A DNA stretch of 64,000 bases from Streptomyces spectabilis (GTDB lineage Bacteria > Actinomycetota > Actinomycetes > Streptomycetales > Streptomycetaceae). This document shows positions 33,601 to 55,971 of this stretch, piece after piece. How positions within the stretch are numbered: position 1 is the first letter of the stretch; each line of letters starts with the position of its first letter. The DNA lies in the NCBI RefSeq assembly GCF_008704795.1, contig NZ_CP023690.1, forward strand, positions 8,132,501 through 8,196,500, given 5' to 3'. The translations under genes and the position numbers were made by a program. The notes beneath the pieces are model-generated. The model had not been told where the DNA came from, did not search any database, and saw only the letters and a list, made by a program, of their open reading frames with translations.

Positions 33601-36600
33601 CGTCGAACTCGCCCTGCACGCCGGACACCGCGTCGGCTGCGCGCACCTGGAGGAGCTGACGCTCCAGGCGCCCCTCGTCCTGCCCGAGCGCGGCGGCGTG
33701 CAGATACAGCTCGCCGTGGGCGCCGCCGACGCCTTCGGCCGCCGCCCGGTGAACCTCTACTCGCGGCCCCAGCACGTGTCCGCCGACGACCTGTGGTCCG
33801 ACGAGCCCTGGCTGTGCCACGCCACCGGCACGCTCGCCCCCGCCCCCGCGGCCCGCCCCGCCGACGCCGACCTCGCCCAGTGGCCGCCCGCCGACGCCGA
33901 GCGGGCCGACACCGAGGAGCTGTACGAGAGCCTGGTCGCCGCCGGGTTCCGCTACGGCTCGGCCTTCCTGGGCCTGCGGTCCGTCTGGCGGCGCGACGAC
34001 GCGCTCTTCGCGGAGGTCGCGCTGCCGGAGGCGGACCGGGAGGAGGCCGGTGCGTACGGCCTGCACCCGGCGCTCCTCGATGCCGCGCTGCACCCGCTGG
34101 GCCTCGGCACGTTCGTGTCCGACACCGAGCAGGGCCGCATGCCCTTCTCCTGGACCGGTGTGTCCCTGCACGCGACCGGCGCCTCCGCGCTGCGCGTCCG
34201 CCTGACCGCCGCCGGAACGGACGGCGTGGCCATGACCGTCGCCGACACCGCGGGGCAGCCGGTCGCCGCCGTGGACTCCCTCGTCCTGCGGCCCATCGCC
34301 GCGCCCGACGCGGGCGCCGTACAGGGCGGCCGCGACGACTCCCTGTTCCGGGTCGACTGGAGTGTGGTACCCGCGTCCTCCGTGACGGCCGGTGGCGTGT
34401 ACGCCGTCCTGGGCGCGGACGAGTTGGGTCTGCGGGGCGCTCTGGAGGGCATCGGCGCGACGGTGGCGGCCTACGCGGATGTCGCGGCCCTCGCCGCGGC
34501 GGTCGAGGGCGGGACTCCCGTACCGGAGTCCGTCTTCGTCACGTGCGTCGGCGGGGAACGCGCGGGCGGTACGGCCGTATCGGTGCGCGCCTCCCTGAAC
34601 AGCACGCTCGGCGTCGTGGGGGAGTGGCTGGCCTTCGAGGGCGGGGAGGACTCCCGTCTGGTCGTGGTGACGTCCGGTGCCGTGGGTGTGGGCGCGGGTG
34701 ACGTGGTGTCGACCGCGGGTCTGGTGGACGCCCCGGTGTGGGGTCTGCTGCGGTCCGCGCAGTCGGAGAACCCGGGCCGCCTCGCCCTCGTCGACGTCGA
34801 CGGCTCGGCGGCGTCGCTGACTCAGGTGCCGGCCCTCCTCGCGCTCGACGAGCCGCAGGTCGCCGTACGCGGGGACGTGGTGTGGGCCCCGCGCCTGACG
34901 CGCGCTGGCGGCGGCGCGCTCGTGGCTCCCGCCGGTGAGAACTGGCAGCTCGGCGTGACCGGGAAGGGCACCCTGGAGAACCTGGCGCTGCTGCCCGTCG
35001 CCGAGGACGCCGACGTGTCCGGAGGCAGGCCGCTGGGCCCCGGTGAGGTGCGCGTGGAGGTGCGTGCTGCGGGTGTCAACTTCCGTGACCCGCTGATCGC
35101 CCTGGGCATGTACCCGGGCGACGCGGTGATGGGCACCGAGGGTGCCGGTGTCGTCGTCGAGGTCGGCTCGGAGGTGAGCGGCCTCGAAGTCGGCGACCGG
35201 GTCCTCGGTCTCCTGGAGGGGGCCTTCGGCCCGCTGTCGGTCGCGGACGCGCGCATGCTGGCGCGGATCCCCGAGGGCTGGTCCTTCGCCCGGGCCGCGT
35301 CGGTGCCGACGGTGTTCCTCACGGCGTACTACGCGCTGCGGGACCTGGCCGGTCTGGAAGCGGGCGAGTCGGTCCTCGTGCACGCGGCCGCCGGTGGTGT
35401 GGGCATGGCCGCGGTGCAGCTGGCCCGGCACTTCGGCGCCGAGGTGTACGGCACCGCGAGCGCCGGGAAGTGGGACGTCCTGCGGGGCCTCGGCATCGAC
35501 GATTCCCGCATCGCCTCCTCCCGCACGCTCGACTTCGAGGCCTCGGTCGTCGAAGGCACTGAGGGCCGGGGCGTGGACGTGGTCCTCAACTCCCTGGCGA
35601 GGGAGTTCGTGGACGCTTCACTGCGGCTGCTGCCGCGTGGCGGGCGCTTCGTGGAGATGGGCAAGACCGACCTCCGCGACCCCGAGGCCATCGCCGCGGA
35701 ACACGCCGGAGTCACGTACCGCAGCTTCGACCTGATCGACGCCGGACACGACCGCATCCGCGAGATGCTGGCGGACATCCTGTCCCTGTTCGAGCGGGGG
35801 GTGCTGGAGCCGTTGCCGGTGACGGCGTGGGATGTGCGGCGGGCGCCGGAGGCGTTCCGGTATCTGAGCCAGGCGAAGCACGTCGGTAAGGTCGTGCTGA
35901 CCCTGCCGCCCCGTCTCGCGTCCGAGGGCACGGTCCTGGTGACGGGTGCTCTGGGTGGTCTGGGCCGGGTCGTGGCGCGGCACCTGGCCGGTGTGCACGG
36001 CGTACGGGATCTGCTGCTGGTCTCGCGACGCGGTGAGGCCGCGCCCGGCGCGGGCGAGGTCCGTGCGGAGCTGGAGGAGTTGGGCGCGCGCGTACGCATC
36101 GCCGCGTGCGATGTCGCCGACCGGGACGCGCTGGCCGCGCTCCTGGACGAGGTGCGTGGCGAGCTGAGCGCGGTCGTGCACGTGGCGGGTGTCGTGGACG
36201 ACGGCATCCTGACGTCGCTCACGCCGGAGCGTCTGGACACGGTGCTGCGGCCGAAGGTGGACGCGGCCGCGAACCTGCATGAGCTGACGGCCGACTTGGA
36301 CCTGTCGGCGTTCGTGCTGTTCTCTTCCGCCGCCGGTGTCCTGGGGAGCGCGGGGCAGGCCAACTACGCGGCCGCCAATGCCTTCCTGGATGCTCTGGCC
36401 CAGCACCGGCGTGCGCTGGGGTTGCCCGCGACCTCGCTGGCGTGGGGCCTGTGGGCCGACCAGGGAGGCATGGCCGGAGCCCTCGCCGACGGTGACATCG
36501 ACCGCATGAACCGTGCGGGCGTGGCGGCCCTGTCCGCTGACGAGGGCCTCGCCCTGTTCGACGCGGCGCTGGCCCAGGCCGACGGCGCCCTCGTGCCGAT

Positions 36601-49067: not shown

Positions 49068-50186
49068 ATGAGCGAGACACCCGAGTCCGAGGCCTGGCGG
49101 CGGGAGGTCGATCGCTCCACCTTCCCGCGGCGCGAGCCCGGCCCCATCGACCTGCGCCGCTACTACGTCCAGCCGTCCTACTCGGGCGTGCCCACCTTCA
49201 TGGGCGTCCCCCTCGCCCTCACCCAGGAGGACCTGCGGGCGGGCGAGGTGGACGTGGCCGTGGTCGGCTGCCCCGTGGACGTGTCCAGCGGGCACCGCGG
49301 CGCCGCCTACGGTCCGCGTGCCATCCGCGCCGACGAGCGCTATCTGTACGCCACCCCCGAGGGGTTCGTGCACTCCGCGACCCGGGTCAACCCGTTCAAC
49401 ATCCTGAAGGTCGTCGACTACGGCGACGCGGCCGTCGACCCCTTCGACATCAGCCGTTCCATGGAGCCCATCCGCGGCCTCGTACGCGAGATCGCCGAGG
49501 TCGGGGCCCGGCCCGTCGTCCTCGGCGGCGACCACTCGCTGCTGTGGCCGAGCGTGGGCGCCCTGTCGGAGGTGCACGGGCGCGGCTCCATCGCCGTCAT
49601 CCACTTCGACGCGCACCCGGACTGCCACGAGGAGCTGTTCGGGCACCGCGCCACCCACACCACGCCCATCCGGCGCCTCATCGACGAGGAGATGGTGCCG
49701 GGCCCGAACGTCATCCAGGTCGGCATCCGCACCATCTCGGGCCCCGACGACCAGCTGTTCAACTGGATGCGCCGGGCCGGGATGCGCTCGCACTTCATGG
49801 CCGAGATCGAGCGGATCGGCTTCGCCGCGGTCATCGACAAGGTCATCGAGGAGGCCCGCGCGGTCGCCGACCACGTGTACCTGTCCCTCGACATCGACGT
49901 CCTGGACCCGGCCTTCGCGCCCGGCACCGGCACCCCCGAGCCCGCCGGGCTCACCACCCGCGAGCTGTTCACCGCGCTGCGCCGCATCGCGCACGAGACG
50001 AACCTGGTCGGCATGGACGTGGTCGAGGTCGCCCCGCACCTGGACGCGGGCTACTCCACCGCCATGAACGCCCGCAGGGCCGTCTTCGAGGCGCTGACAG
50101 GCCTCGCCCTGAACCGCATCAAGATCTCCAGCAAGAACTACGCGAACCCGATCGTGGCCGGAGAAGTCCGCTTCCCGCTCAAGTGA
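49068..50186 (+). CDS. Agmatinase-type ureohydrolase, candidate macrolactone amidinohydrolase
   Basis: This is a 372-residue arginase/agmatinase-family enzyme. ATG at 49068 follows GAGGAGAGAG (49058-49067). All binuclear Mn motifs are present: GGDHS, HFDAHPDCHE and SLDIDVLDPAFAPGTGTPEP. Family members hydrolyse a guanidino group to an amine plus urea. In the clethramycin/mediomycin system such an enzyme acts late and converts the terminal guanidino group of the polyketide to an amine, the guanidinium serving as a mask during assembly. The same role is inferred here. It lies 80 bp after the P450 gene in the same direction. A simpler role in agmatine or guanidinobutyrate catabolism is possible but fits the neighbours less well. 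Confidence 0.9.
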   Translation: MSETPESEAWRREVDRSTFPRREPGPIDLRRYYVQPSYSGVPTFMGVPLALTQEDLRAGEVDVAVVGCPVDVSSGHRGAAYGPRAIRADERYLYATPEGFVHSATRVNPFNILKVVDYGDAAVDPFDISRSMEPIRGLVREIAEVGARPVVLGGDHSLLWPSVGALSEVHGRGSIAVIHFDAHPDCHEELFGHRATHTTPIRRLIDEEMVPGPNVIQVGIRTISGPDDQLFNWMRRAGMRSHFMAEIERIGFAAVIDKVIEEARAVADHVYLSLDIDVLDPAFAPGTGTPEPAGLTTRELFTALRRIAHETNLVGMDVVEVAPHLDAGYSTAMNARRAVFEALTGLALNRIKISSKNYANPIVAGEVRFPLK

Positions 50187-51399: not shown

Positions 51400-51749
51400 G
51401 CCGCTCCTCAAATGTTCTGTACGGGGTGAGCACTCTCGTGCTTCTCGTTCCGCTTCCCGGTGTTCCCACCGGCTCGCCGACAACACTTATTCAATCGCTC
51501 CGGGCATCCGGCGGGGCAGGGGGAAACGTTGGTACCGCTACCGACGAAAGTTGTGACCGGATGACGCGTTCCCCCTCTCGTGGACCTGGCGTGCTCCGGG
51601 CCCGGGGTGCACGGTGCTGTCGGCGCGCGTACCGTGCGGAAGCCCCCAAAGACGTTAAGAAGGCGTCAAAGCCGCAGGTCAGGGCGGTGGATGCGGTCTG
51701 CAGGCAGCACGCATTAAGCTCTCCACGACCCACACAGCGCGAAGCCGAC
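51400..51749. other. Intergenic region between the small membrane protein and first histidine kinase genes
   Basis: This 350-bp divergent region must contain both promoters. It is less GC-rich than its neighbours around 51520-51560 and 51640-51720. The short symmetry GGTACCGCTACC lies near 51530. I see no convincing gene, RNA or named operator in it. Confidence 0.45.
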
Positions 51750-53018
51750 ATGTACGGGGGTGGGCTTGTCGTGCCGCACGTCAAGACGGCCGGATCACAG
51801 CGGACCAGGACGTTCCGTCCCGTGGCGTCCGACCTCCTTCTTCTCACCGCCCTGATCGTGGCCAACGTTCTGGTCGCCATCGGCAATGTGGACAACGGCC
51901 ATCCGCGGTTTGGGCCGTGGGCGGGGTTGGGGTTGCAGGTGGTTGTGGTGGTGGTGTTGGTGGTGCGGCGGGTGTGGCCGTTGTGGGTGTTGGGTGTGGC
52001 GACGGTGTCGGCGGTGTTGATGTCGTTGTCGGTGTGGTGGGTGCCGGGGTTGTTGGTGACGTCGGTGGATGGGTCGGGGGTGTGGGTGCCGTTGGCGGCG
52101 CCGTTTGCTGCGTATTCGGCGGTGGTGTATTCGTCGCGGCCGCGGGGTGCGTGGGTGTTGACGGGTGTGTTGACTGTGGTGGCGACGCGGTTGTGGGAGT
52201 TGTCGTTCGCGGTGGCGGCGTCGGGGGTGTTGTTGACGGCGGTGCCGGCGTTGTTGGGGATGTATGTGGCGGCGCGGCGGGGGTTGATCGCGGCGTTGAC
52301 GGAGCGGGCGGAGCGGGCGGAGCGGGAGCAGTTTTTGTTGGCGGAGCGGGCGCGGGCGGAGGAGCGGGTGCGGCTTGCGGGGGAGATGCATGATGTGGTG
52401 ACGCATCGGGTGTCGTTGATGGTGTTGCAGGCGGGGGCGTTGCGGGTGGTGTCGTCGGATGAGCGGGTGCGGGCGGAGGCGGAGGGGTTGCGGGCTGCGG
52501 GGTGTCAGGCGTTGGAGGAGCTGCGGGATTTGGTGGGGGTGTTGAGGTCGCCGGAGAGTGCGGCGGGTGTGGTGGGGGCGGTGGGTGATGGGGGTGGTGT
52601 GTCGGGTGGTGTGGGGGTGGGTGATTTGGGGTTGTCGGTGTTGGTGGAGGAGTCGCGGGCGGTGGGGGTTGAGGTGGAGTTGAGTGAGGTGGGGGATCGT
52701 TCGGTGTCGTCGCCGGTGGTGGCGCGGACGGCGTATCGGATTGTGCAGGAGGGGTTGACGAATGTGCGGAAACACGCGCCGGGGTGTGGGGTGTGGGTGG
52801 AGGTGCGGTATGAGGCGGACCGGGTGCGGTTGCGGGTGCGGAATACGGCGCCGACGGGGTTGGTGGACCGGGAGTTGGCGTCGAGTGGGTCGGGCAGTGG
52901 TTTGAAGGGGTTGCGGCAGCGGGTCGAGCTGGTGGGCGGCACGTTCGAGTTCGGGCCCCGCCCCGACGGCGGCTTCCACATCGAATCCGTACTGCCTCTG
53001 GAAGCGAGCCATGGATAG
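51750..53018 (+). CDS. Sensor histidine kinase, HPK7 (NarX/DesK-like), copy 1
   Basis: This is a membrane kinase of about 422 residues. Several hydrophobic segments occupy the first 170 residues, then a coiled coil rich in Ala, Glu and Arg (LTERAERAEREQF). The dimerisation/phosphoacceptor block follows (GEMHDVVTHRVSLM, His in MHDV), then the ATPase N-box RIVQEGLTNVRKHA and G-box SGSGLKGLRQR. It should phosphorylate the response regulator encoded 9 bp downstream. The start is uncertain: ATG 51750 or GTG 51771, the latter having a better purine-rich leader. Residues from HPRFGPWAG to HIES are identical to the second kinase; the N-terminal membrane segment and the end (VLPLEASHG) differ. Leu is mostly TTG and Val mostly GTG through the repeat, unlike neighbouring genes, which use CTG/CTC and GTC. 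Confidence 0.93.
   Translation: MYGGGLVVPHVKTAGSQRTRTFRPVASDLLLLTALIVANVLVAIGNVDNGHPRFGPWAGLGLQVVVVVVLVVRRVWPLWVLGVATVSAVLMSLSVWWVPGLLVTSVDGSGVWVPLAAPFAAYSAVVYSSRPRGAWVLTGVLTVVATRLWELSFAVAASGVLLTAVPALLGMYVAARRGLIAALTERAERAEREQFLLAERARAEERVRLAGEMHDVVTHRVSLMVLQAGALRVVSSDERVRAEAEGLRAAGCQALEELRDLVGVLRSPESAAGVVGAVGDGGGVSGGVGVGDLGLSVLVEESRAVGVEVELSEVGDRSVSSPVVARTAYRIVQEGLTNVRKHAPGCGVWVEVRYEADRVRLRVRNTAPTGLVDRELASSGSGSGLKGLRQRVELVGGTFEFGPRPDGGFHIESVLPLEASHG
51903..52989 (+). repeat. Inverted repeat, left arm (1,087 bp, inside kinase copy 1)
   Basis: This arm matches the reverse complement of 54038-55124 with equal length and no indel. The encoded residues are identical, and the stretches compared base by base, including both ends, showed no mismatch. 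Outside it the sequences diverge at once; the preceding His codon is CAT in one copy and CAC in the other. Confidence 0.92.
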
Positions 53019-53027
53019 ACTGTCCGC

Positions 53028-53690
53028 ATGGGGCATGAAGTCGTAAAGGTGCTGGTCGTCGATGACGAACCCATGGTCTGCGCACATTTGAGAACGATTC
53101 TGGGTTCGGCCGAGGATATTGACGTCGTCGACGCCGCCCACGACGGAGCCGCGGCGGTGGAGGCCGTGATGCGGCATCGCCCCGATCTCGTCCTCATGGA
53201 TTTGCGGATGCCGGGTGTGGATGGCCTCACCGCCATCGAATGCATCATGAAACTGGACCAGCCGCCGAAAGTGGTGGCGCTCACCACCTTTGACGCCGAT
53301 CAGTATGTGATGCGGGCACTGCGCAGCGGCGCCAGTGGATTTCTGGTGAAGTCGACGCCGCCCGAGGATCTGATCGGCCTGGTCCGGGTGGCCGCCGACG
53401 GGCACACGGTGCTCTCGCCCGTGGCGATGCGCCGCATCGTGGCCGCCTCGTCCGACGAGGACGCGGCGCGCGAGCGGGCCAAGGCCCTCGTCGGCAAGCT
53501 CACCGAGCGCGAGACGGACGTGCTCACCTGCCTCGGCGAGGGCCTGTCGAACGCGCAGATCGCCACGAAGCTGTTCCTGAGCGAAGCGACCGTCAAGGGC
53601 TATGTCTCCCGCATGCTCGTCAAGCTGGAGTGCACCAACAGGACCCAGGCGGGCCTGCTCGCCTACGACGCGGGCCTCGTCAGCCGCTGA
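53028..53690 (+). CDS. Response regulator, NarL/FixJ family
   Basis: This 220-residue protein has an N-terminal receiver domain (residues 6-122) with the acidic pair VVDDE, phosphoacceptor Asp in VLMDLRMPG, Thr in ALTTFD and Lys in FLVKST. The C-terminal LuxR-type helix-turn-helix covers about 150-212 (LTERETDVLTCLGEGLSN, then SEATVKGYVSRM). It is a DNA-binding transcription factor paired with an HPK7 kinase. The ATG is 9 bp after the stop of kinase copy 1, so the two are co-transcribed. On its other side the second kinase gene converges on it. The gene sits wholly inside the 1,048-bp spacer of the inverted repeat. Targets are unknown; the nearby polyketide genes are a possibility only because of proximity. 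Confidence 0.95.
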   Translation: MGHEVVKVLVVDDEPMVCAHLRTILGSAEDIDVVDAAHDGAAAVEAVMRHRPDLVLMDLRMPGVDGLTAIECIMKLDQPPKVVALTTFDADQYVMRALRSGASGFLVKSTPPEDLIGLVRVAADGHTVLSPVAMRRIVAASSDEDAARERAKALVGKLTERETDVLTCLGEGLSNAQIATKLFLSEATVKGYVSRMLVKLECTNRTQAGLLAYDAGLVSR

Positions 53691-54037
53691 CCGCATCGCC
53701 GGCCCGCCCCGACGGGCCCGGCCGGCCGGCAGCGCGGTTTCGGCGGGGGAGCAGCGGTCGAGCCCCGTCCGTCGCTGTTCGGGTCGCTCTGTGGCGGGGC
53801 GGCCGAGGTCCCGGCCGGGTGGCCGCTATACGGCTGAGGGTTTCTCGTCGGGCTTGCCCGAGCGCGTGGGCGCCGCCGTCGGGCCCAGCCCCTCGCTGCC
53901 CGGCCCCGTCGCAGACAGGTCCTGGCCCCGTCAGCCGGGGCGATCGAGCGGTTGCTGTGCGGGTCAGCCCTGCCCGTGTACGCGTGGGCGCCGTGGGCGG
54001 ATCCAGCTGCGCGTCGTGGGGACGTAGATCGGGAGCT
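53691..54037. other. Spacer between the response regulator and the right repeat arm
   Basis: This 347-bp stretch holds the last residues of kinase copy 2 (from 53964 on, minus strand). A modest hairpin GGCCCG/CGGGCC (53701-53718) just after the regulator stop may be a weak terminator. I see no transposase, invertase gene or attachment site in it. Confidence 0.5.
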
Positions 54038-55244
54038 CGGATTCGATGTGGAAGCCGCCGTCGGGGCGGGGCCCGAACTCGAACGTGCCGCCCACCAGCT
54101 CGACCCGCTGCCGCAACCCCTTCAAACCACTGCCCGACCCACTCGACGCCAACTCCCGGTCCACCAACCCCGTCGGCGCCGTATTCCGCACCCGCAACCG
54201 CACCCGGTCCGCCTCATACCGCACCTCCACCCACACCCCACACCCCGGCGCGTGTTTCCGCACATTCGTCAACCCCTCCTGCACAATCCGATACGCCGTC
54301 CGCGCCACCACCGGCGACGACACCGAACGATCCCCCACCTCACTCAACTCCACCTCAACCCCCACCGCCCGCGACTCCTCCACCAACACCGACAACCCCA
54401 AATCACCCACCCCCACACCACCCGACACACCACCCCCATCACCCACCGCCCCCACCACACCCGCCGCACTCTCCGGCGACCTCAACACCCCCACCAAATC
54501 CCGCAGCTCCTCCAACGCCTGACACCCCGCAGCCCGCAACCCCTCCGCCTCCGCCCGCACCCGCTCATCCGACGACACCACCCGCAACGCCCCCGCCTGC
54601 AACACCATCAACGACACCCGATGCGTCACCACATCATGCATCTCCCCCGCAAGCCGCACCCGCTCCTCCGCCCGCGCCCGCTCCGCCAACAAAAACTGCT
54701 CCCGCTCCGCCCGCTCCGCCCGCTCCGTCAACGCCGCGATCAACCCCCGCCGCGCCGCCACATACATCCCCAACAACGCCGGCACCGCCGTCAACAACAC
54801 CCCCGACGCCGCCACCGCGAACGACAACTCCCACAACCGCGTCGCCACCACAGTCAACACACCCGTCAACACCCACGCACCCCGCGGCCGCGACGAATAC
54901 ACCACCGCCGAATACGCAGCAAACGGCGCCGCCAACGGCACCCACACCCCCGACCCATCCACCGACGTCACCAACAACCCCGGCACCCACCACACCGACA
55001 ACGACATCAACACCGCCGACACCGTCGCCACACCCAACACCCACAACGGCCACACCCGCCGCACCACCAACACCACCACCACAACCACCTGCAACCCCAA
55101 CCCCGCCCACGGCCCAAACCGCGGGTGATCCTCTCGGGGAAAGCCGCTCCAGAAGGCGACGAAGACGTTGAGTGCGATGAGTGCGGCGACGAGGATGGTG
55201 TCCTGAACGGCGCTGCGGCCCAACCATCGAATCGGCCCTATCAC
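53964..55244 (-). CDS. Sensor histidine kinase, HPK7 (NarX/DesK-like), copy 2
   Basis: This is a 426-residue membrane kinase starting at GTG 55244, with AGGGTGA upstream. From HPRFGPWAG to HIES it is identical to copy 1, so it has the same coiled coil, phosphoacceptor block (GEMHDVVTHR), N-box and G-box. Its own N-terminus (MIGPIRWLGRSAVQD, first membrane segment ILVAALIALNVFVAF) is related to but clearly different from that of copy 1. Its C-terminus ends with an extra basic tail (YVPTTRSWIRPRRPRVHGQG). No regulator gene lies downstream on its strand; the only regulator is convergent. It is either a second input to that regulator or the silent partner of an invertible pair. Confidence 0.92.
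   Translation of the reverse strand: MIGPIRWLGRSAVQDTILVAALIALNVFVAFWSGFPREDHPRFGPWAGLGLQVVVVVVLVVRRVWPLWVLGVATVSAVLMSLSVWWVPGLLVTSVDGSGVWVPLAAPFAAYSAVVYSSRPRGAWVLTGVLTVVATRLWELSFAVAASGVLLTAVPALLGMYVAARRGLIAALTERAERAEREQFLLAERARAEERVRLAGEMHDVVTHRVSLMVLQAGALRVVSSDERVRAEAEGLRAAGCQALEELRDLVGVLRSPESAAGVVGAVGDGGGVSGGVGVGDLGLSVLVEESRAVGVEVELSEVGDRSVSSPVVARTAYRIVQEGLTNVRKHAPGCGVWVEVRYEADRVRLRVRNTAPTGLVDRELASSGSGSGLKGLRQRVELVGGTFEFGPRPDGGFHIESELPIYVPTTRSWIRPRRPRVHGQG
54038..55124 (-). repeat. Inverted repeat, right arm (1,087 bp, inside kinase copy 2)
   Basis: This is the reverse complement of 51903-52989. With the 1,048-bp spacer the whole palindromic structure spans 3.2 kb. The coding strand is strongly G-rich across most of the arm; codon use returns to the genome pattern over the last 75 bases of the shared segment. 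Confidence 0.92.
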
Positions 55245-55440
55245 GCGGTCACCCTAACGGCGCCCCCGCGCCGCACACGCACATGTGGTCCATAGGACAC
55301 AGGGGAGCGTACGAAAGTGGGTAGCGCGCCGCCGAAGTTGCAACCTTGGTCGCTTCCACTGCACACGAACCGCTCTGCCTGCTCCGCCGCCCCGCTTGTT
55401 TGGCTGGTGTCACGCAGCAGGCCGAAGGGGCGGAGGAGCA
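55245..55440. promoter_or_regulatory. Divergent intergenic region, kinase copy 2 / bPH2 gene
   Basis: This 196-bp region must hold the promoters for kinase copy 2 (minus) and the bPH2 membrane-protein pair (plus). GGAGGAG at 55432-55438 sets the GTG start at 55441. No clear operator is seen. Confidence 0.45.
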
Positions 55441-55971
55441 GTGCCACACGAGACGCGGCAGCGGCCGGTGCCGGAGCCGGTGCCGGACGCGCTGGGCGCG
55501 CCGCGCCCTGCCCGGCGCCTGGACCGCCGCGCCGTCTACTGGTGGACGACGCAGAACGTGCTGGTCGTCGCGCCGGTCCTCGCCGCCCTCGCGGCCCTGG
55601 CGCCGCTCCCCGACGCGCCGTCGTGGCTGTGGCCCGTCTTCGCGGTCCTGTGCCCCCTCGGCGTCGGCTACGCGCTGCTCACCCCCTGGTACCGCTACCG
55701 CGTGCACCGCTGGGAGGCCGGTGACGCCGCGGTGTGCGCCGTCTCGGGCTGGTTCGTCCGGGAGTGGCGCGTCGTGCCGTTCACCCGCATCCAGACCCTG
55801 GACACCAAGCGGGGCCCGCTCATGCAGCTGTTCGGCCTGTCCGCGGTGACCGTGACGACCGCGTCGGCGGCGGGCCCGGTCACCATCGCGGGCCTGGACG
55901 ACACGCTCGCGACCGAGATGGTCCGCGACCTCACCGAGCGCGTCCGCGCCCTGCGCGAGGACGGCACGTGA
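55441..55971 (+). CDS. Membrane protein with one bacterial PH domain (bPH2, YdbS-like)
   Basis: This is a 176-residue protein. The GTG is chosen because GGAGGAG is directly upstream; the open frame continues to 55285 but that part is Arg/Cys-rich and unlike a gene. Two hydrophobic segments (about residues 32-75) are followed by the bPH2 domain, which has WYRYRVHRWE, the strand pattern GWFVREWRVVPFTRIQTLD and RGPLMQLFGLSAVTV. Proteins of this kind usually form a pair with a larger multi-bPH2 membrane protein, as here, where the next start overlaps this stop by four bases. The role of the family is poorly known; membrane stress or protection against membrane-active compounds has been suggested for related Bacillus proteins. 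Confidence 0.85.
   Translation: MPHETRQRPVPEPVPDALGAPRPARRLDRRAVYWWTTQNVLVVAPVLAALAALAPLPDAPSWLWPVFAVLCPLGVGYALLTPWYRYRVHRWEAGDAAVCAVSGWFVREWRVVPFTRIQTLDTKRGPLMQLFGLSAVTVTTASAAGPVTIAGLDDTLATEMVRDLTERVRALREDGT

Follow-up and report, generated by a model that had tools for sequence, protein, structure and literature searches.

Two sensor histidine kinase genes of Streptomyces spectabilis face each other across a single response regulator gene and carry a long stretch of identical sequence in inverted orientation. The question they raise is whether the locus is an invertible switch that hands one regulator from sensor to sensor, or whether its symmetry has another origin. The locus lies in a window of 64,000 nucleotides (assembly GCF_008704795.1, contig NZ_CP023690.1, positions 8,132,501 to 8,196,500), and all coordinates below count from the first position of that window. 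We consider it probable that the two genes form a twin-kinase locus homogenised by recombination, inversion being a likely by-product. A preliminary description had proposed the switch and had named a constantly homogenised duplication as the simpler alternative; it is the simpler alternative that fits best, the repeated parts having evolved in concert here and in a second genome (G375).

Layout of the locus

The kinases HK1 and HK2 converge around the single response regulator RR, and their repeated parts (the arms) are exact inverted copies over 1,087 bp with no mismatch and no indel; a mismatch-tolerant repeat listing gives 1,097 bp. Nine bases separate the HK1 stop from the RR start. Arm coordinates, identity, facing orientation and gap had been given in the preliminary description and are borne out by exact repeat comparison. 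A DNA search of the window's own genome (9,807,160 bases, one contig) returned 12 matches, two of them full-length at 100% and ten short at 67-85%. Chance identity was rejected in view of the 1,087 exact bases. The elements, with identities to G375 and to the related loci L030 and L164, are:

51487..51749, plus strand: P1, region upstream of HK1 (87% identity to G375, 73% to L030)
51750..53018, plus strand: HK1, sensor histidine kinase, 422 amino acids (Pfam HisKA_3 and HATPase_c)
51903..52989, plus strand: left arm, exact repeat of 1,087 bp with GRINS-like skew (see below)
52990..54037, no strand: spacer of 1,048 bp (HK1 tail, RR, intergenic region, HK2 tail), which inversion would flip
53028..53690, plus strand: RR, LuxR/NarL-type response regulator, 220 amino acids (Pfam Response_reg and GerE)
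53964..55244, minus strand: HK2, sensor histidine kinase, 426 amino acids (Pfam HisKA_3 and HATPase_c)
54038..55124, minus strand: right arm, exact inverted copy of 51903-52989
55245..55445, minus strand: P2, region upstream of HK2 (95% identity to G375, 84% to L164, a WC-3618 contig)

Outside the arms, the kinase starts comprise 51 N-terminal residues in HK1 as against 40 in HK2, and the tails are short in HK1 (VLPLEASHG) and long in HK2 (ELPIYVPTTRSWIR...). A simple hydropathy scan places only the first membrane-like segment outside the arms (residues 29-47 of HK1, 17-35 of HK2); the arms take in the remaining membrane-like segments together with HisKA_3 and all but a small part of HATPase_c. 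Hydropathy and domain positions thus indicate that what distinguishes the kinases is the promoter, the tail and the first membrane segment together with its loop, and not the whole sensor. Of the differing ends named previously, promoter and tail stand as described, and the membrane part is narrowed to the first segment. With HisKA_3 and HATPase_c in the kinases and Response_reg and GerE in the regulator, the system is of the NarL/DesK type, and among solved structures HK1 is matched best by VraS and DesK.

Concerted evolution of the arms

The G375 locus has the same arrangement as the window and lies inside a 10.13-Mb contig of a two-contig genome. Within each genome the arms are indistinguishable (no difference in 1,087 bp in the window, none over 1,090 exact bases in G375). 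Between the genomes 34 of the 1,087 sites differ, and all 34 changes are common to both arms, none being specific to one copy; the codon changes comprise 22 silent ones and 9 that alter a residue. Identity between the two genomes is 95.4% for the HK1 start, 95.8% for the HK2 start, 96.8% for RR (nucleotide) and 34.8% for the intergenic region between RR and HK2. Because every difference is concerted across the two genomes, recombination between the arms is strongly indicated, and it is well supported that the arms are kept identical within each genome while drifting between species, the homogenisation being attributable to gene conversion or crossover, which look alike in these data. At the protein level, the S. 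flavofungini kinases P0122 and P0130, both listed with a contig of 9,114,702 bases, are identical over 352 arm residues. Seven further partial kinases (P0137-P0141, P0146, P0151) occupy contigs of 953-1,149 bases, which appears to be the size expected for a collapsed arm.

RR was sought in overlapping draws of 61, 392 (protein), 393, 394, 391 and 294 genomes, and copies of at least 83% DNA or at least 85% protein identity were found in four genomes including the window's own (G000, G375, G187, G263). The related loci considered here are the best 80 of 491, a set in which nearer relatives may be missed.

Two other origins of the identity bear on these data. A very recent inverted duplication, identical for lack of time, would account for the absence of differences over 1,087 bp, but the G375 pair with its 34 concerted differences, together with promoter remnants in relatives that suggest an old pair (next section), speaks against it; we regard it as highly improbable, and it was rejected on the concerted change across species. 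Long exact repeats are also a classic assembly problem, and one arm could in principle be an artefact. That this is so here is hardly credible, however, as two copies with differing ends recur in the window (one contig), in G375 and among the S. flavofungini proteins, each copy having its own conserved upstream region.

Relatives with one kinase

Two loci, on different contigs, occur in each of the draft genomes of S. sporangiiformans and Streptomyces sp. G44: in one (type I) HK1 precedes RR and HK2 is missing, in the other (type II) RR faces HK2 and HK1 is missing. Past the type I RR a P2 remnant is found, beginning 81 bases after the RR stop in L144 (83% over 104 bp, E 7e-25) and 28 bases after it in L032 (76% over 113 bp, E 1e-16). 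Before the type II RR a core of P1 is retained (77% over 78 bp, E 1e-9, in L031; 73% over 79 bp, E 5e-7, in L056). As a control, P1 and P2 were compared with 66 loci at an E cutoff of 0.01; 8 loci matched P1 and 4 matched P2, and the best of these, bar the type II locus L056, reached 3e-5 over 40 bp. The paired layout looks ancestral because each derivative keeps the promoter remnant of the side it lost, and a paired ancestor that was duplicated and then underwent complementary losses would be the simplest history. An origin of the window locus by fusion of two unlinked loci was considered and replaced, the P1 and P2 remnants pointing to deletions from a paired ancestor. In the RR tree the window groups with the type I regulators at a support of 94/92, slightly below the tool's mark for a firm fork.

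The type I loci hold a further kinase, about 51-52% identical to HK1, between acyltransferase and P450 genes (L142:13356-14438, L144:10657-11787), with an ordinary GC skew of 0.07 and 0.05, respectively.

Nucleotide skew of the arms

Read on the coding strand, GC skew in the arm is 0.53 and TA skew 0.48, rising to 0.86 and 0.80 at third codon positions, while RR (0.04 and -0.01) and both kinase starts are unskewed. A control set of 82 distinct stretches from unpaired kinases, none more than 65% identical to the query (87 before three duplicates and two additional kinases from type I loci were removed), has a mean GC skew of 0.020 (standard deviation 0.047, maximum 0.13) and a mean TA skew of 0.069 (maximum 0.21). 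The four kinases of the partnerless type I and type II loci lie between, with GC skews of 0.16-0.24, a range that fits decay after loss of the partner.

Skewed repeats of this kind are known as GRINS of polyketide synthases: coding repeats of about 1 kb, often above 90% identity, with GC and TA skew above 25%, for which gene conversion has been proposed (PMC10394414, PMC9899208; cited, like the other papers here, from part of the text). We tested 19 duplicated regions of the window by blastn with thresholds adapted from PMC9899208 (identity >80%, at least 500 bp, mean skew >0.15) in place of the published script. Only the two arms passed, with GC/TA skews on the plus strand of 0.54/0.49 and -0.52/-0.47; the closest of the failing regions, 34411-34950, had 0.14 (GC) and 0.30 (TA). 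That skew might simply characterise the surrounding cluster is not supported, none of the 17 other duplicated regions passing. In skew, in length and identity (1,087 bp at 100%) and in concerted change between species (34 of 34 differences) the arms agree with GRINS, whose copies share one polyketide synthase; here they sit in two histidine kinase genes, and the arms are for that reason GRINS-like rather than GRINS as published.

Swapped and unswapped kinases

A crossover between inverted repeats necessarily inverts the segment between them. At this locus it would join each kinase start (N1, N2) to the tail of the other gene (T1, T2), and pairings were typed by eye among 35 kinase proteins, of which 9 without an end, 8 of type I or type II likeness and 2 untypable (P0144, P0147) were dropped. 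P0123 is a shorter P0121, the start of P0129 is shortened, and the frameshifted tail of P0134 was typed from DNA. Of the 16 remaining, 12 have the pairing of the window and four are swapped, in the combinations that inversion predicts (N2-T1 in P0124 and P0127; N1-T2 in P0128 and P0134). Two swapped proteins have 352-residue arms identical to those of unswapped ones (P0124 to P0131, P0128 to P0121). Swapped combinations are thus present in the databases, and the inverted state, as known from assemblies, is hinted at. The comparison of relatives proposed earlier as a check does return both pairings, the swapped one confined to contigs below 1 Mb.

Several observations weigh against the homogenised locus with inversion as by-product. 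Concerted evolution was measured at the DNA level in two genomes only, and recombination is inferred from sequence and not directly observed. The TA skew of the type I kinases (0.07, 0.11) falls within the unpaired range, and only that of the type II kinases is raised (0.28, 0.25); the intermediate values would also fit a skew that preceded pairing. As for inversion itself, all six clusters whose longest contig measures 4.85-9.62 Mb are unswapped (P0121, P0122, P0123, P0126, P0130, P0131; four contig sizes), and the swapped kinases come from contigs of 904,015, 16,413, 2,972 and 1,553 bases, so that the inversion may itself be an assembly artefact, a wrong path taken through a collapsed repeat. 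The SMD44 locus name of P0123 suggests S. alboflavus MDJK44, which is a PacBio assembly (PMC6145153).

Such chimaeras form a reading of their own: homogenisation as we favour it, which this reading otherwise shares, with an inversion never established in nature. It draws on the small contigs of all four swapped kinases and on L030, the sole swapped case readable as DNA, where tandem duplications of 46 bp and 63 bp near the two ends of its arm are as expected of forced assembly joins. At its left end L030 has a stub of 99 bases that recurs within the arm, and contig C491, with the other flank, opens with 99 bases from the opposite end of the arm; L030 was not accepted as proof of the inverted state on account of these duplications and stubs. 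On the other side stand the inversion that crossover between inverted repeats entails and the 904-kb contig of P0124. We judge the chimaera reading rather unlikely, though not negligible. Two transposase-like insertions were noted by eye in L030 (150-1480 and 4400-5460), one parting the kinase tail from RR and the other lying between the small gene and the thioesterase gene.

A selected switch, in which flipping the spacer puts RR under P1 and the HK1 start or under P2 and the HK2 start in a mixed population, is somewhat less likely again. Consistent with it are the long perfect arms, the conservation of both ends in G375 (both N segments and P2, as given above), the finding of both predicted products, and the two swapped and unswapped pairs with identical arms. 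Yet one arrangement is found in the six clusters on contigs above 4 Mb, in the window and in G375, and the eight type I- and type II-like kinases, likewise typed by eye, fit N1-T1 and N2-T2, so that the present orientation looks like a long-term default. Nearly the whole catalytic part is common to both kinases, and inversion may change little; a recombinase domain was found in none of the eight neighbouring proteins scanned with Pfam, the rest of the genome not having been searched. What stands of the proposed switch is the recombination (concerted arms) and the occurrence of swapped start-tail combinations (4 of 16), and it is the switching role that the uniform arrangement on long contigs, in the window and in G375 disfavours.

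The homogenised twin-kinase locus may accordingly be pictured as an old arrangement, P1-HK1 and RR facing HK2-P2, beside genes of polyketide-cluster type. Homologous recombination between the kinase genes would be frequent enough to keep identical the 1.09 kb over which homology permits it, as concerted evolution in two genomes suggests, and the exchanged DNA would bear intense GC and TA skew as in polyketide synthase GRINS. The two kinases, almost alike in their catalytic and dimerisation parts and hence presumably sharing a partner, would feed one RR from two promoters through differing first membrane segments and tails. Crossover between the arms would flip the spacer and exchange the kinase starts, probably as a natural by-product, the orientation seen here being the usual one; the swapped kinases in relatives hint at as much.

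Neighbourhood and a shared upstream motif

By Pfam, the left neighbours comprise an AMP-binding enzyme, an acyltransferase, a P450 and a thioesterase, and the right neighbours two bPH_2 proteins and one MMPL protein. A small membrane-protein-like gene beside P1 (51199-51405) has no Pfam match and is 97% identical in G375 and 87% in L030. The gene at 49068-50186 looks agmatinase-like, and the cluster may, at a guess, be of an aminopolyol type. The words 'kinase' and 'two-component' are absent from the main text, as far as available, of PMC4737276 and PMC9600172 on desertomycin and related compounds; the overlap of those clusters with the locus is unchecked.

P1 and P2 share a motif, ACGAAAGTKG, with two matches in the window, one per kinase upstream region, where 0.07 are expected (two or more in none of 100 shuffles), the motif having been picked after both regions had been inspected. 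It is a possible regulator site:

51544..51553, plus strand: ACGAAAGTTG, motif common to P1 and P2, possible operator
55311..55320, plus strand: ACGAAAGTGG, second motif copy, in P2

The P2 remnants that type I loci retain contain a near form of the motif.

Comparison with known systems

Like GRINS, the arms are near-identical, skewed coding repeats of about 1 kb; unlike them, they belong to histidine kinase genes and are inverted relative to each other. The GRINS papers, in the parts cited, treat polyketide synthases only, and similar repeats now appear in a small two-copy signalling locus. This locus and its relatives offer natural controls, paired kinases being strongly skewed, partner-lost ones weakly (clearly in GC, mixed in TA) and unpaired ones hardly at all, which makes the proposed link between skew and recombination testable. 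Single-kinase loci of the NarL/DesK type in actinomycetes (82 distinct kinase stretches) share the kinase and regulator families and mostly, among those fetched, have the kinase directly before the regulator, but they show neither an inverted partner nor strong skew. A literature search of titles and abstract openings found no comparable kinase locus.

The nearest parallel in layout is that of type I restriction-modification loci with duplicated, invertible hsdS genes, for which switching has been reported (PMC7394358; PMC4948785). Here as there, inverted gene copies have common repeats and distinct, exchangeable ends, so that inversion shuffles the parts. The locus differs from hsdS in being a two-component system, in a repeat that spans most of the gene, and in swapped pairings seen across assemblies only. 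It is doubtful, though conceivable, that homologous inversion across recombination-prone, GRINS-like arms reversibly switches the single regulator from one promoter and sensor start to the other, and that a locus bordering an antibiotic-type gene cluster thereby keeps a population mixed as a form of bet-hedging. If inversion were proven common, it would represent an unusual bacterial way to rewire a sensor system.

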